This document shows, piece after piece, positions 20,325 to 51,413 of a stretch of 64,000 nucleotides of DNA. Each line of letters begins with the position of its first letter. Position 1 is the first letter of the stretch. A model generated the notes under the pieces. It searched no databases and was not told where the DNA came from. It saw only the letters and a program-made list of their open reading frames with translations. The translations under genes and the position numbers were made by a program. This stretch comes from Thamnidium elegans (lineage: Eukaryota; Mucoromycota; Mucoromycetes; Mucorales; Mucoraceae). The DNA is taken from NCBI GenBank assembly GCA_025201345.1, contig JAIXMG010000038.1, forward strand, positions 1 through 64,000, written 5' to 3'.

Positions 20325-20845
20325 TTTTTTATTAAAAAAGAAGGCGAAAGAAAGAAAAGAAAAAAAAAACTGCGTAGTTGTAATTCTGCGTTTTAAAATG
20401 AATTTTAATTTTCTCACCCTGGTTCCAAGTCAATTCTTACTAATCACTTTTTTGGTTTAAACTTTTTTTTGCATAAATCGTAAAGTCAACGGTGATATCT
20501 TGATTTTTTTGTTTTAAAAAAAACTTGGTTTTATCTCTAGATGTTATTTCGGAACAATCTCTGTAGTATATGTTTACAACTCATCTTTCTAACCAATATG
20601 AATACCGAGATTTTTTTTACTTTGTTTTCATTTACTTTTTACAGTTATTTTTAACAATGTAAAAAACTTGACAGCTTCAAAAAAGGATGAGTTCATATGA
20701 CCCAACATGTATTCGTTTTTTTTTTTTTTAAAAAAAAACTTCTTTTAATCTATTTTCAACCAATCAAAATTACTACACGTGCCTATCACGTGATTATTTA
20801 AAAATATATTTTCAATACAAACCCTAAAACTTTTTTTCGACATTT
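20325..20845. other. Intergenic region, Lon promoter side
   Basis: About 0.5 kb upstream of Lon and of the tRNA gene. It contains a T-run followed directly by an A-run at about 20718-20740 and an ACGTG-containing stretch (CACGTGCC/CACGTGAT) near 20775-20791. No protein-coding segment seen. Confidence 0.4.
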
Positions 20846-20928
20846 GACGGCTTGTCCGAGTGGTCTATGGAGTTGGTCTCGAAAGCCAATGTACTTTGTA
20901 CGCGCAGGTTCAAATCCTGCAGCCGTCG
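20846..20928 (+). tRNA. tRNA-Ser (anticodon CGA)
   Basis: Class II tRNA of 83 nt. Acceptor stem GACGGCT pairs with AGCCGTC, with discriminator G at 20928. The anticodon stem TTGGT/GCCAA closes the loop CTCGAAA, so the anticodon is CGA, which decodes the serine codon UCG. A variable arm (TGTACTTTGTACG) and a T-arm with CAGGTTCAAATCCTG are present. There is no intron, unlike the yeast tRNA-Ser(CGA), which is interrupted. The A-box and B-box (GGTTCAAATCC) are intact. Confidence 0.95.
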
Positions 20929-20929
20929 A

Positions 20930-44758: not shown

Positions 44759-47681
44759 CTAATTGTTAACGGGTGCCATCTCATAATGTTGATTTCTTTC
44801 ACCTGTTGTATTTATTGTCTCGGCTAATTTTGCTCTAATCATTTTTGTGGCTTCGCCTGTGACGGTCGAGAAAATAGTTTCAGCAGGACCCCAAAGGTTA
44901 AGAGCGTAGATTACGTATACTATACTAAGACATAGGATAACTATAGCTAAATACAATGGTCTTTGCAGAAGTGCCATAAATTCATTCCATCCTAACACAA
45001 TCATCACTAAAATAACCCAAGGAGGTATCTTGGCTGTTGTTGATACTACAGATCTTTTCGCCTCCAAGAAAAATGCATCTGATTCTCGTTTAAACCTAGT
45101 TGTAATATCAATTTGTTTGGCCTCGGATAAAACTGTGAGTGTCCTTTCAAAGTCAAAGTCTTCATCTGATTCTAGTTTAAAATCTGGATCTCTACTCAAG
45201 TCGACTTTGGAAAATCGTTTGATTAATGATAATGTCTATTATAAAAGCAGTTAAGTAACTAATATCCCCTCTTTTTTGTAATTGTTTTTTACCTCGTCTC
45301 TGGCTTTTTTAAAGTGTGAGTCAATATCGTCCTGAGGTTTCCAGACTTTTGGAAGTCCATGTTCATCGTAACGAAATTTTTCCTCGAATCTATAAAGATA
45401 TCAATACCTATTTTTTATGTATATAAACATATGTGACACATATACACATACCTATTTCTTAATTTTAATAGTAATAGATTATCCGCTAGTTCATCATCCA
45501 CTTTTTTACGAAGAACAATCCAAGTTCGTTTCTTAAGCTCAGATACTGACTTTTTGATCTCTTCTTTAGAAGAATCGAAACCTATGCCATAAATAATATT
45601 AGTGTCTCGTAATTCTGTATTCATAATATTAGGATTTACTTTTTGCTTTCTTGGATAATAGCTTTTCACCATCAGAGACAGTAGATTTGTAGGCACCAAT
45701 CACTTTGTGCCACATATCATTAGTAGGTTGATTTAACTCGAGAGCAATGGGATCTGCAAGTTCAGTTTCTATTTGTTTTTCAAGAGCTTTATTCATTTTT
45801 TTAAATTCCGTAGTACGAGCTTTTGAAGATATTTCTTTAAAATCTTCAGTTAGCAGTTCTTGCTCACGAGAATAAGACCAGTCCGTTTCAGGTAACATGG
45901 TAGCTAAAGTATATAAAAAGTAAGTCTGATATGTATTCTGAATTTACTAACCTGCCTACCTTTTGCACCATTAATAAAGTATTCATTTGCTTGTTTTAAA
46001 CAAGTAGAGATAACCTGAGCAAAGTTATACGTAGGGTCTTTTAATTGTTTTCGAAGGTTTTCATCGAACATAATGACGGCTTTTTTATGCAAATTATTTA
46101 TTTGACCAACAAAGTATACACCCAATTGAATATTTAATTTTGCATACATCTCTAATCGTTTCTTTTGATATACGCCTTGATCATAACGGGATGCACTTTT
46201 ATCAAATGATTCTAACGCTTCATCCCTAATACCTTTCATCACTTTTCCTAGTTCTAAATTAACTTGGCCCTTTTCCAGGATCGGTGATTTATATGGCGTA
46301 ATCCTTTCGTTAAATACTTCAAATGCGGCCTAGCGTAAAAAAAAAGAAGCATAAATTAATCGGATAATTCAAATGGCACGATTTTCTTTTTTACATTTGA
46401 TATTTCGTCACATCTGTATTGAGCTAAAAGTTGTTGCTGCGTAGGTAAATCGAGATCCTTGTTTGTTAGCACTTTGTCCCAAATACTAGAAGCGTATACA
46501 TGATAACCATCTGCCGGAATACGTTTATGATATTCTGGACGAAATACAAAATTGGGATCTTTGGGATCATTAAATCTAAATGGTAACTTAGTAACCTTAT
46601 TTTTTTTTTACGTCACTGATAGAAGCTTTTTTTTTTTACCTTGAACGAAGTTTTATTACTTCTTGATCGAATTTATCGGGTAATAAAATTTTATGAGGTA
46701 AACCAGTAAACATAAAATCGAAATACTGAGTAATTTTACAATCCTCTAAACCTTCAGGCTAAAACAAAAGAATCAGTATACATATAGAATAGATATTTTT
46801 TTTTCCTACTTTTGACAAGCTGGCCCAAATCTTTTCGAGATCCGCTTTTAGTGTGTTTGCCAAATTATCTAATGGAGTAGCGCCAACAAAATCACGAATG
46901 ACGATCAATAATAAAGTTTTTTCTTTACTGTGTATGATAAAATAATTTAGTAATTATCATGTGCTAAAAAATCTCTAAAATAAATACCTCTTTTGGTTTT
47001 GAAATAATTGTAAATTGACTTCAAATACAGTCTTTAATAAACCCATATTGGCACCTTGATAAAGACCCACTTGATGCTCCCATAAATTAATAATAATGAC
47101 TTCACTTGTAGCCATTGAAAATAATGCGGATTTACGCTCAAAGTCTTGATCCTCTCCACGTTCACGACCATCTGTTCCTTCTACATCCATCACAAGAACA
47201 TGCATACCTTTAGCACGAGATAACCAAATACCCTTTGTCGTCTGTTTTCGTTGATTTTCATCCATTTCTGCAAACGATGTGCCGAATAATCTATTTAACA
47301 AGGTACCTAAAATGAAAAAAAAAATATTGAGTATTATTATAATATACCCTCCATCATATGGTCCATTATTTTTATTTAATATATTACTTTTTCCGGTACT
47401 TTGTGATCCAAATACTGCTACTACATCGTACTTGAACCCAGCATCAGAAAGACCCCAATCCTTCATATATTGCGAAAGCTTGTCACTATATACAAATATA
47501 ATTGAGTAAAAATATATGTATATATTTTAAGTTATGTACTTTACGAAAAAATTTGATGTTCGTCTACTACTTGAAGTCGAGGAATAGGTGCCAAATCGTG
47601 GTCCCAGTCTAAAATTGAGTTTGTTGAGTTTGTTGGCTCGGTCGGTTTGTTCTTTTCGTTTAGTAACTGGTTATTAACCAT
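44759..47681 (-). CDS. SEY1: Sey1/RHD3 dynamin-like GTPase (ER membrane fusion)
   Basis: About ten exons; the first are 47681-47545, 47485-47388 and 47306-46988. Sey1 is the atlastin-type GTPase that fuses ER tubules. Visible: G1 GSQSTGKST (an intron splits the serine codon of GKS), G2 region [12 protein letters not shown]3 [20 protein letters not shown]4 IVIRDF. A long helical bundle follows ([20 protein letters not shown] and onward), then two closely spaced C-terminal membrane segments ([15 protein letters not shown] and [17 protein letters not shown]) and a cytosolic amphipathic tail ending HYEMAPVNN. The start [13 protein letters not shown] is 224 bp from the inverted-repeat element. No truncation seen. 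Confidence 0.93.
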
Positions 47682-47904
47682 ATTTGTTATTTTATAAAAT
47701 AATAAAAAAGAAAGAGTTAAAGCAAAAAAAAACGAAAAAAAGAAAAACTTGTAGTGCTCGCGCTTTTAATTTAAGCGAATCATTGTTACAGATTTATCTT
47801 ACCCCAAGCATGACATTACACAAATGTAATATAAGCCAATTAGGGCTTAAGAAGGTAAATGTCACTATAAGGTTTTAGTTTTTTTTTTGTGAAATCGGTG
47901 TGTT

Positions 47905-48241
47905 GTTTCTTTTCCTTTTTTTTCTTCTTAAAAATGAATGATAATGTTGATAAAGATATAATTATATTTTAATAAAACGCAAAATAACTGAACTAATATG
48001 TAATATTGTGAACAAAGATGTGGATGCGTTCACATTACCACTTACTTGGATACCAGGGTAGGGTCTTGTGAGTAAGCTATTGTTGAATGATCGCAAGATT
48101 ATAAATCTAATTGTTCAATCTTTATTAGGTACGTATACTTCTTTTTTAATATGTAAATATACCTTTTATTAAAGACACACAATATTTTATAGGTAAAAAT
48201 GTTTCAGCTGATGATTATGCAGTCGCATCAACAGAATGGGC
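47905..48241 (+). repeat. Left arm of a 337-bp perfect inverted repeat
   Basis: From GTTTCTTTTCC at 47905 to GAATGGGC at 48241, every base I compared matches the reverse complement of 49451-49787. The arm contains the 5' flank, first coding-like segment, an intron with GTACGT donor and the first residues of the next exon of a nuclease-like gene. No target-site duplication is visible at the outer ends. Confidence 0.92.
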
Positions 48242-48881
48242 TAATGGGTCGAAGTCGGACATACTTTACGTATCGGGAGATAAAGCTACAAATGTCAGGC
48301 CTCCTATTCTGATCGAAATTCAATGCCAAGTTAACCAAAATTTCATGACAAGTCTTATTAGATCCTCAACTTCAGTGTATAATAGGTACAAAGTACTGCC
48401 AATTGTTCTTATTTTCGCTATCAAAGGTTTTTCTGATAATACTACTAAAGAAGAATTCACCACCAATAAGAGACAATATTTATTAAAAATAAGTTCAAAG
48501 TTCTGGGCGAAAGAATGCTCGTTGTCATCTATTGCATCAATCAATGAACATATTATTCAATCTCCAACGGATGAGTCGGTTGTATTAGGCTATTTTCTCA
48601 TTAGCGGTTCATTGTCTTTAATGTTGCTTGAACACAAATCAAATCCAACAGTACAATTAATATATAATATCACAATGCAGATTTTTTTAAGAGAAGGTAA
48701 TGGAAAGGCTAGCAAGAAAATTGTAACCGATCAAATCCTTGAAGATACCAAAAGACAGCTTGAAAAAATCCTTGAAGAAGACACTACCCAAGAGCCTGAT
48801 ATAAAGAAAATAAAACATCCGCTTTATTCAATCTGTGTCACAGCCTGGCAAAAGCAGGGAATGGAAAAACATATACGATGA
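47934..48881 (+). pseudogene. PD-(D/E)XK (Rpn/PDDEXK-transposase-like) nuclease gene, left copy
   Basis: Coding-like segment (VDAFTLPLTWIPG, in-frame TAG, then GLVSKLLLNDRKIINLIVQS) spliced at a GTACGT donor to an exon at 48193-48881. That exon reads DDYAVASTEWANGSKSDILY, then PPILIEIQCQVNQNFM, then YKVLPIVLIFAI. D(ILY)...E-x-Q fits the PD-(D/E)XK core of Rpn-type nuclease/transposase families that are multicopy in Mucorales. The second exon is intact for about 230 residues. The in-frame TAG, and the lack of an ATG in the right frame, suggest a pseudogene, unless the TAG is the acceptor of an unrecognised upstream intron. Family assignment is by motif only. Confidence 0.55.
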
Positions 48882-49030
48882 AGGAAAAGCGAAAGGACTT
48901 TTTTTATCATACACACCATCAGATAATCTAAAGACCTCCTATTATCATGCACAACGACGAATGAAAACAAATCAATGATAGTTTTATTTCATCTTATTTC
49001 ATCTTATATCGTTTTCAAAATAAACACTTT

Positions 49031-49758
49031 TTATTTATGAGCTTTTTTTTTTTCAGTTTTGCACACCAAACGGGAAGTCTGAGATTTAGTATCATCTGAA
49101 AAAGAAAATGCTTTGTTTGGGTTAGGTATAAACTGGCGCACGGCAAACAGCACATATGTCGATTTGTTATGTACATTTTCAGTACTTGAGTCAGGAGAAA
49201 ACAAAAAGCATTTGCGTGCCCAGAAAGTAGATTTAAGTCGTATCAAAGACAAATTTGTGTCCAGACAAAGTTCATCCTCATCAATTATGCTGGTAAAATA
49301 TTGAATTTATCGTAGGCCGGCGTACAGTATCGAATAATAGCTGACATCGAAGCAAAATTAACTTCTTTTTGAACAAAAACAAATATCGGCGTGAATCTAT
49401 CATCATCTTCATTTTGCGAAACATATATAATAAAGCCATCCTCTTTTTCGGCCCATTCTGTTGATGCGACTGCATAATCATCAGCTGAAACATTTTTACC
49501 TATAAAATATTGTGTGTCTTTAATAAAAGGTATATTTACATATTAAAAAAGAAGTATACGTACCTAATAAAGATTGAACAATTAGATTTATAATCTTGCG
49601 ATCATTCAACAATAGCTTACTCACAAGACCCTACCCTGGTATCCAAGTAAGTGGTAATGTGAACGCATCCACATCTTTGTTCACAATATTACATATTAGT
49701 TCAGTTATTTTGCGTTTTATTAAAATATAATTATATCTTTATCAACATTATCATTCAT
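49031..49758 (-). pseudogene. Right, inverted copy of the nuclease-like gene (decayed)
   Basis: Shares the 337-bp 5' part with the left copy and then diverges: AEKEDGFIIYVSQNEDDDRF, then TPIFVFVQKEVNFASM, where the catalytic-type Glu of E-x-Q is replaced (FVQ). The frame stops after YDKFNILPA and resumes in another frame as TFWARKCFLFS, which parallels KFWAKECSLSS of the left copy. About ten residues are missing at the break, so a deletion with frameshift is likely. It ends at 49031 and is convergent with the left copy. Confidence 0.55.
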
Positions 49759-49787
49759 TTTTAAGAAGAAAAAAAAGGAAAAGAAAC
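49451..49787 (-). repeat. Right arm of the 337-bp perfect inverted repeat
   Basis: Reverse complement of 47905-48241. Its outer end is 122 bp upstream of the MAT2B-like start codon, so part of that gene's promoter region may come from the element. Confidence 0.92.
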
Positions 49788-49909
49788 GATATGCTTATTT
49801 GACATGTATGAGTGACCAAAAAGTATATTTTTAAACCGCGTTTTTTTTTTCGTATATTTTTTCTCTGGGGGAAATATTATTGTTTCCCTTTTTTGTTATT
49901 ATTATAAAT

Positions 49910-50350
49910 ATGAAGGTTATTGTCACTGGCGGTTCTGGTCTTTTAGGAAGACCCACAATAAGAGAATTTAAAAAGGCTGGCTGCGATGGTAACAAATGAA
50001 CCTCTGACAAAAAAAAAAGTTCCTTATTTTATTGACGTGTTTTTTATTAGTTGTTGGTACAGCTTTCTCTCGCGCTAAATATGAATTATTAAAGGTAAAA
50101 TAAGTGCTTTCAAGTCAGACAGAATAAACTAAAATGTTTTTTTTTTCTATCAGCTTGATTTAACTGATTCAACTGCTGTCGAAAACTTTATCGAAGCTCA
50201 ACAACCTGATGGTATGTAGTGCGTATTTATAAATATTCATATATAAAATATTCATATATATATATATATATATCATAGTAATTGTCCATTGCGCTGCTGA
50301 ACGTCGTCCTGACGTGGCCGAGCAAGACCGTGATGGTGTTTTACGCGTAG

Positions 50351-50382
<32 letters not shown>

Positions 50383-51413
50383 TTACTGATTTTATCAAGA
50401 TGAACTAATGATAGACAACTTTTTTTAAAATTACAGTTGAATGTTGAAACTCCTAAAACTTTAGGTAGAATCTGTAAGAAGAGAGGAATTATGCTTATTT
50501 ATATTAGTACCGATTATGTATTTGATGGAACTGCGCCACCTTATGAGGTAGAAGATAAACCCAATCCTTTACAATTCTACGGTGAGACAAAATTGGGAGG
50601 TGAGGAAGCTATTAAAAGTGTTTATCCCGAAGCTGTTATTCTTCGTGTCCCAATCTTATATGGCGACACTGAATATAACGGTGAATCTGCTATCAATGTT
50701 TTAATTGATGTTGTTTTGGTAAAAATAATAATGATCAGTTTTTTTTTTTTTTTTTTTTGGTTATAGACTTGCTAATATTTTTACTTTAGAACCATGATAA
50801 GCCTACAGTCGTAGATAACGTGTCTTGTCGTTATCCTACCAATGGTAAATATACAGTAATGTATATATGAAAAACCTATTCTTGACCCTTTTTTTCTTTT
50901 CTTATAGTTGAGGATGTTGCTCGTGTCATTAAAGATTTATCGGGTAATTCATTTTGTAATAATTTATAACCAAAGTCGCTAAATCATTTTGTAATTTAGT
51001 TGCAAAGGTTAAGGATCATAAAGATATTAAGGGCATTTACCATTTCACTGGCCAAGAAAGTATAACTAAATATCAAGTCTGTGGTAAGTTGAGATCGAAA
51101 AAAAAGGAATGACGGTATATGATTGTAACTATTTTTTTTTTAAAAAAAAATAAAATAGAAATTGTAAGCAAAATCTTGGGAGCACCTATCGATCATCTTA
51201 CTCCTCAAAACACCATTGATAAAGCTGCATCAGGTTTGTTATGTGTTACATAGATATCTTGATCGATAATCTAATACTCTCTTTTTTTTTTTAAAAAAAA
51301 AAGTCTCGAGACCTGAGAACTCTCATCTTTCCATCAAGCATCTTAAAGAAACTGGTATTGATACTAGTTTTGTTAGATTGGCCGATTGGTTTTCAAAGAA
51401 TCTTTCCAAATAA
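49910..51413 (+). CDS. MAT2B / RmlD-like NAD(P)-binding protein
   Basis: Short-chain-dehydrogenase-type Rossmann protein of the RmlD_sub_bind family, closest to the regulatory beta subunit of methionine adenosyltransferase. About ten small exons (49910-49988, 50051-50094, 50154-50211, 50279-50346, 50437-50718, 50790 onward). Glycine motif MKVIVTGGSGLLGRP at the N-terminus; VIVHCAAERRPDVAEQD; YISTDYVFDGTAPPY; catalytic-type Y-x3-K in FYGETKLGGEEA; VILRVPILYGD. It ends LADWFSKNLSK. It probably binds NADP; whether it regulates MAT in this fungus or acts as a reductase cannot be told. Introns are 50-90 nt, several with TnAn tracts at the 3' end. Confidence 0.85.

Follow-up and report, generated by a model that had tools for sequence, protein, structure and literature searches.

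An inverted repeat in the 5′ parts of two convergent nuclease-like genes

The window analyzed here is a 64,000-nucleotide stretch of DNA from the mucoralean fungus Thamnidium elegans (positions 1 to 64,000 of contig JAIXMG010000038.1). It contains two nuclease-like genes that face each other between divergent SEY1-type and MAT2B-type genes, and the 5′ parts of the pair form an inverted repeat (Table 1). The locus is C32 in the contig-based naming of family loci used below. The two arms are identical at 337 of 337 bases with no mismatches and are separated by a 1209-bp spacer. Exact identity is lost at the very next base on either side. The original prediction, made from the letters alone, had described a perfect repeat with diverged spacer halves around convergent nuclease-like genes, and each element of this description holds: the arm identity is complete, sequence and motif support the nuclease-like character of the convergent genes, the PF05879 and PF04321 matches confirm the divergent housekeeping flanks, and the two bodies differ at about half of their positions past the arm boundary.

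A repeat of this length stands apart from its surroundings. The longest exact inverted repeat within 5 kb was 14 to 17 bases in 20 Markov-1 simulations of a 64-kb window, and the remaining inverted repeats of at least 60 nt in the window, among the matches listed, are 60–65 nt long and 70–77% identical. A search of the 34.1-Mb genome with the window arm returned only the two arms themselves, although this DNA search may overlook very common words. No structured RNA matched Rfam at the gathering level in positions 47000-51000. Perfect identity with abrupt ends is also what an assembly artefact would look like. This explanation is the least probable of those considered, since the two arms adjoin different housekeeping genes and bodies of different old lineages, the two halves of the spacer do not mirror each other, and other family loci carry similar tracts with 1–9% divergence.

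The + strand gene is of the type referred to here as active, with a recognizable acidic motif, and the − strand gene belongs to a lineage, referred to as degenerate, that has lost at least one of its two acids. The exon structure of the left arm was read by hand and by comparison with the protein P0011; the two peptides searched in relatives are separated by a comparable gap of 61–74 nt where the window arm has its intron. Both arms carry an in-frame TAG in the N-terminal module (N-module). The + strand gene has a frame break ahead of its C-terminal domain, and the − strand gene has one in the body near 49280. With a TAG in both arms and frameshifts in both bodies, the two window genes look dead as judged from their sequences. 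Because they look dead, the identity of the arms needs no selection and may be a by-product of their closeness and inversion.

A dispersed family of predicted nucleases

The window genes belong to a dispersed family. The protein of the + strand gene gave 100 genome matches at E up to 10, and about 75 gene-like family clusters are present at E below 0.05. In the longest members, an N-terminal module precedes a nuclease-like body that carries an S-D...E-x-Q motif; a long stretch of helices follows, and a small helical domain forms the C-terminus. PF04754 (Transposase_31, the bacterial Rpn family) matched 2 of 15 family members weakly with a best E of 7.3e-4, TIGR01784 matched 2 of 15 with a best E of 0.012, and the Mycotypha relative P0013 scored above the PF04754 cut-off (22.1 versus 21). 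The window protein had no PF04754 match in the profile search and stayed below the curated cut-off.

AlphaFold models of an active-type protein (predicted local distance difference test, pLDDT, 74.1; predicted template modeling score, pTM, 0.54) and of the degenerate protein of locus C42 (pLDDT 78.5, pTM 0.80) resemble each other in the order of their helices and strands. Structure searches with the active-type model returned, weakly, many restriction-type and repair nucleases among the matches. A sequence search of the PDB gave chance-level helical matches only. The family is probably of the PD-(D/E)XK type and related to Rpn/Transposase_31, and its active-type members are predicted nucleases.

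Active-type relatives are present in Parasitella, Helicostylum, Mucor, Mycotypha and Rhizopus. None of 82 pattern matches in prokaryote genomes was confirmed as a family relative. One family gene matches the T. elegans protein BDF21DRAFT_352390 at 100%. The pair at C42 is intact and both of its genes are annotated in T. elegans; its degenerate protein, P0010, found only itself in the protein collection. None of the titles and abstract openings surveyed shows this family.

Active-type and degenerate genes recur as convergent pairs

The motif was scored in all 35 genes of the fetched stretches whose alignments cover both motif columns. Both acids of the D...ExQ-type motif are kept in 21 of 26 genes outside the degenerate lineage, including the + strand gene of the window, and in 0 of 9 genes within it, the lineage being defined by similarity to C29s or C26s together with pairing and so not fully independently of the motif. 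The degenerate bodies of the window, C12, C29 and C56 form one clade (support 100/100). The ratios of nonsynonymous to synonymous substitution rates in four comparisons among degenerate bodies were 0.33, 0.48, 0.52 and 0.21 with synonymous sites near saturation, which suggests that these bodies were under constraint in the past.

Eight of the nine degenerate genes (C4, C10, C12, C26, C29, C32, C42 and C56) face, in convergent orientation, an active-type gene or the C-terminal part of one. No convergent partner was found for the ninth, C1:2306170, within the 2.7 kb examined. Neighboring family pairs within 4 kb are convergent in 12 of 16 cases (p = 3.8e-5 against one quarter), a count that includes the tandem pair at C64 and leaves out the pairs more than 4 kb apart at C25, C48 and C10:197894; the tandem pair at C5 may be one gene with two exons. 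Both genes of the convergent pair at C1 retain the two motif acids.

Arms and bodies have conflicting ancestry

Past the arm boundary, the two bodies of the window pair are 49.2% identical over 300 nt, and the corresponding values are 50.0% for the C12 pair and 48.1% for the C29 pair. Bodies are closer to their counterparts at other loci. Degenerate bodies are 57–70% identical across loci, that of the window being 65.9% identical to the C12 body and 65.8% to the C29 body. The active-type bodies of C12 and C29 are 72% identical, and that of the window is 58.7, 58.2 and 55.8% identical to those of C62, C29 and C12. The N-modules have the opposite relation. Their identity within the pair is 100% in the window and 97.7% at C12 against 63.6% in the unconverted C29 pair, and the modules of C12 and the window are only about 59% alike.

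Tree tests agree with the identities for the bodies and, at C12, for the modules. The approximately unbiased (AU) test rejected a grouping of bodies by locus (window, p = 1.8e-7; C12, p = 1.6e-8). A grouping of N-modules by lineage was rejected as well (p = 0.000235); this result is driven by C12, and with the C12 degenerate gene (C12s) left out of the grouping, a window degenerate N-module that stays with its lineage was not rejected (p = 0.234). The two N-modules of C12 cluster with the C29 active-type module (C29f) with support of 99/98, and by this placement the direction of copying at C12 is from the active-type to the degenerate gene. At the window, a completely identical tract adjoins bodies that are half identical, and in the AU tests tract and body conflict in ancestry, for the N-modules through C12; both properties are characteristic of a conversion tract.

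The C12 arm and the window arm stop at a homologous codon, which fits copying that was stopped by the divergence of the bodies. A new inverted duplication that put a copy of one 5′ module ahead of another body would also leave sharp ends and perfect identity. Such an event is very unlikely, with the breakpoint falling at the homologous codon in both the window and C12. At the unconverted convergent pairs C29, C26 and C42 the corresponding position is occupied by each gene's own, diverged 5′ module, which means that a homologous target already existed. The original prediction had offered two readings for the 5′ modules, recent gene conversion or a new inverted duplication. The first, with conversion confined to these modules, is sustained by the identities and the AU tests, and the fresh duplication loses ground because the old lineages recur as convergent pairs in which each gene has a 5′ module, whether converted or not. 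Near-identical 5′ halves in this family are no evidence of recent duplication.

Inverted repeats recur at other family loci

Inverted repeats of at least 80 bp and 91–100% identity were found in 8 of 34 fetched family stretches and in 0 of 30 kinase loci (111.6 kb). The family stretches are the best 30 genome matches plus chosen further places and so a non-random sample, and the kinase controls are the best-scoring 30 of a longer list. In the first family sample, 7 of 30 stretches carried such repeats, corresponding to 6 places. The tracts vary in shape, with differing layouts at C4, C13, C45 and C62 (Table 1). Both C62 arms contain a dispersed repeat that is 99% alike between the arms and 91–93% identical to 38 other listed copies, so inserted DNA is also shared between these arms. 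Arm identity, mosaic ancestry, opposite relations of arms and bodies, and recurrence at other loci are all properties read from the aligned sequences.

The arms could instead be long terminal inverted repeats (TIRs) of a mobile element with the nuclease pair as cargo, their identity dating from the last transposition. The dispersal of the family over some 75 gene-like clusters suits mobility. The outer ends of C23 (TACAGTCGCTC, both arms) and C4 (TACAGTG, both arms) resemble Tc1/mariner ends after TA, and IS630/Tc1-like transposase open reading frames were seen by eye near two family genes (C26:401084-401542 and C56:774549-774995). The original prediction had proposed the genome-wide search with the arm and had taken many copies as the sign of an ordinary TIR transposon; the two matches obtained are the window's own arms, and this lack of a further copy speaks against such an element. 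The TACAGTCGCTC pattern is present at 4 genome sites, none of them at the window. Arm ends vary between loci, and at the window and C12 the inner ends fall within coding sequence. No shared direct flank or target duplication was seen beside the window arms, a comparison of one site with no empty site. The low similarity of the C12 and window arms in the N-module also shows that they are not one young element. A TIR transposon is therefore an unlikely source of the window repeat.

Several further repeats were noted at these loci. A palindrome at C1:2207530-2218200 surrounds a convergent family pair with a spacer of 897 bp, and its right arm reaches the end of the fetched stretch. Inverted 3.0-kb stretches at C25 (305482-308500 and 315434-318451) are 99.9% identical, lie about 10 kb apart and hold one family gene each. 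The dispersed repeat in both arms of the C62 inverted repeat (C62:521316-523207) is about 350 bp long, has a high copy number and resembles a solo long terminal repeat (LTR; TG...CA, with GATCT flanks at the right arm). A repeat resembling a miniature inverted-repeat transposable element (MITE), with 33-bp inverted ends, sits beside the C12 left arm at its outer end (C12:912887-913275), and related repeats lie near C42:71191-71495, C29:339662-339872 and C21:405160-405553. The arm ends of C4, C23 and C62 were considered as one transposon family, and this grouping was dropped for having too few sites.

Table 1 Features of the window locus and inverted repeats at other family loci
Feature	Position	Strand	Remarks
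Left arm	47905..48241	+	337/337 identity; genome search; starts ~30 nt upstream of first ATG and ends in first body-exon codons (...STEWA); order: short first exon, intron, N-module exon, intron, start of body exon
Right arm	49451..49787	-	Content as left arm, inverted
Spacer	48242..49450	.	Diverged bodies and 3′ ends of the convergent pair
Active-type gene	47934..48966	+	N-module, body with S-D...E-I-Q motif, C-terminal domain
C-terminal domain of active-type gene	48820-48966	+	Different frame from body
Degenerate-lineage gene	49088..49758	-	N-module as in active-type gene; motif D to F, E to F
In-frame TAG in N-module (WIPG*GLVSK)	48059..48061	+	GTD/GSD in relatives; position hand-counted
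Right-arm TAG, identical	49631..49633	-	Derived from 337/337 arm identity
Arm intron (GTACGT...TATAG)	48129..48192	+	
Right-arm counterpart of intron	49500-49563	-	
SEY1-type gene, part	46975..47466	-	PF05879 RHD3_GTPase, E 1.7e-59
MAT2B-type gene, part	50437..50766	+	PF04321 RmlD, E 2.6e-27
C1 inverted repeat			Arms of at least 4.9 kb, 99.86%
C45 inverted repeat			1041 bp, 100%; genes diverge
C62 inverted repeat			628 bp, 99.2%; single body left
C23 inverted repeat			349 bp, 97.7%
C32 (window) inverted repeat			337 bp, 100%
C12 inverted repeat			318 bp, 97.5%
C4 inverted repeat			318 columns, 90.9%; arm stops shortly before both start codons
C13 inverted repeat			84 bp, 95.2%; inside body
TACAGTCGCTC-type ends	C23:253169, C23:255783, C62:521032, C35:77594		C23 sites are the outer arm ends

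Probable gene conversion between inverted paralogues

The favored explanation, to which a probability of roughly 0.78 is assigned, is that ectopic gene conversion between the inverted paralogues of an old convergent pair left the window repeat behind. The unit would consist of a probable PD-(D/E)XK nuclease and a paralogue without the motif acids. Their 5′ modules, inverted and about 1.2 kb apart, would be similar enough to pair. Repair of a break in one 5′ module would copy the other, and copying would halt where the bodies become too different. Repair-type conversion would be the agent, its last action at the window would be recent, and the spacer may occasionally flip.

Inversion of the spacer would follow naturally as a side effect of such recombination. 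An invertible cassette, in which arm-to-arm recombination acts as a switch that inverts the spacer and decides which body lies behind each outer flank, is quite unlikely. The arms are identical and inverted as a switch would need, and a similar homogenized inverted repeat in Saccharomyces flips its interior (PMC9731477). Both window genes look broken, however, and the arms begin so close to the ATG, about 30 nt before it, that a flip mainly swaps upstream sequences. Inversion in the yeast case is termed a by-product by its authors.

Conversion between inverted repeats is already known, and what is proposed here is its repeated action on the 5′ parts of facing active-type and degenerate nuclease genes. 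The Saccharomyces flip/flop system is a close parallel to the conversion proposed for the window. As described in PMC9731477, its inverted paralogues are near-identical through gene conversion and closer to each other than to their orthologues, LTRs lie inside the repeats in some strains, and the homogenized repeats flip their interior because some conversions resolve with crossing over. The yeast repeats are 4.2 kb long, contain two genes, lie 24 kb apart, are homogenized as a whole and have flipped repeatedly. In T. elegans the tract is limited to the 5′ part of each of two facing genes, at a distance of about 1.2 kb, and several loci of one family are affected. Arm-to-arm conversion also keeps the palindromes of mammalian sex chromosomes near-identical (PMC8981503, PMC3403216); these are much larger than the window tract of a few hundred bases, and the C1 palindrome comes nearer to them.

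Possible roles of the degenerate partner

Pairs that remain intact, such as that at C42, may consist of a nuclease and a non-catalytic partner that dimerizes with it and restrains, directs or assists it. In bacteria, a short product of an Rpn gene restrains the nuclease encoded by that gene (PMC10327210). The T. elegans family resembles the Rpn proteins (YhgA-like, PF04754; PMC10327210, PMC5350276) in weak profile similarity and in the D...ExQ motif, and a nuclease is accompanied by a shorter relative of itself in both systems. RpnS is the C-terminal domain made within the same gene as RpnL (PMC10327210), whereas the T. elegans partner is encoded by its own, facing gene, retains the N-terminal and nuclease-type parts, and lacks motif acids and the C-terminal domain. 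Since a second gene encodes the shorter relative and the part it lacks is another one, the comparison with RpnL/RpnS is an analogy and not membership. The wtf genes of fission yeast are likewise a fungal family spread over the genome, undergo non-allelic gene conversion and give full and short products; their proteins are unrelated and come from one gene with two transcripts.

A more far-reaching and doubtful possibility is that the pairs are old, dispersed two-gene units of the Mucorales in which a nuclease faces a catalytically emptied paralogue that acts as a toxin-antidote-like guardian. Recombination between the arms would then keep promoter or N-module common, so that the two proteins stay co-expressed and matched while the bodies diverge, and the window pair would be a relic. 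If degenerate partners guard or steer nucleases, they would be a fungal counterpart, differently built, of bacterial nuclease toxin-antitoxin pairs. If the guardian role is real, the family would also offer a test case for conversion that keeps two antagonistic proteins matched.

Elsewhere in the window, a tRNA-Ser (CGA) gene lies at 20845-20929.
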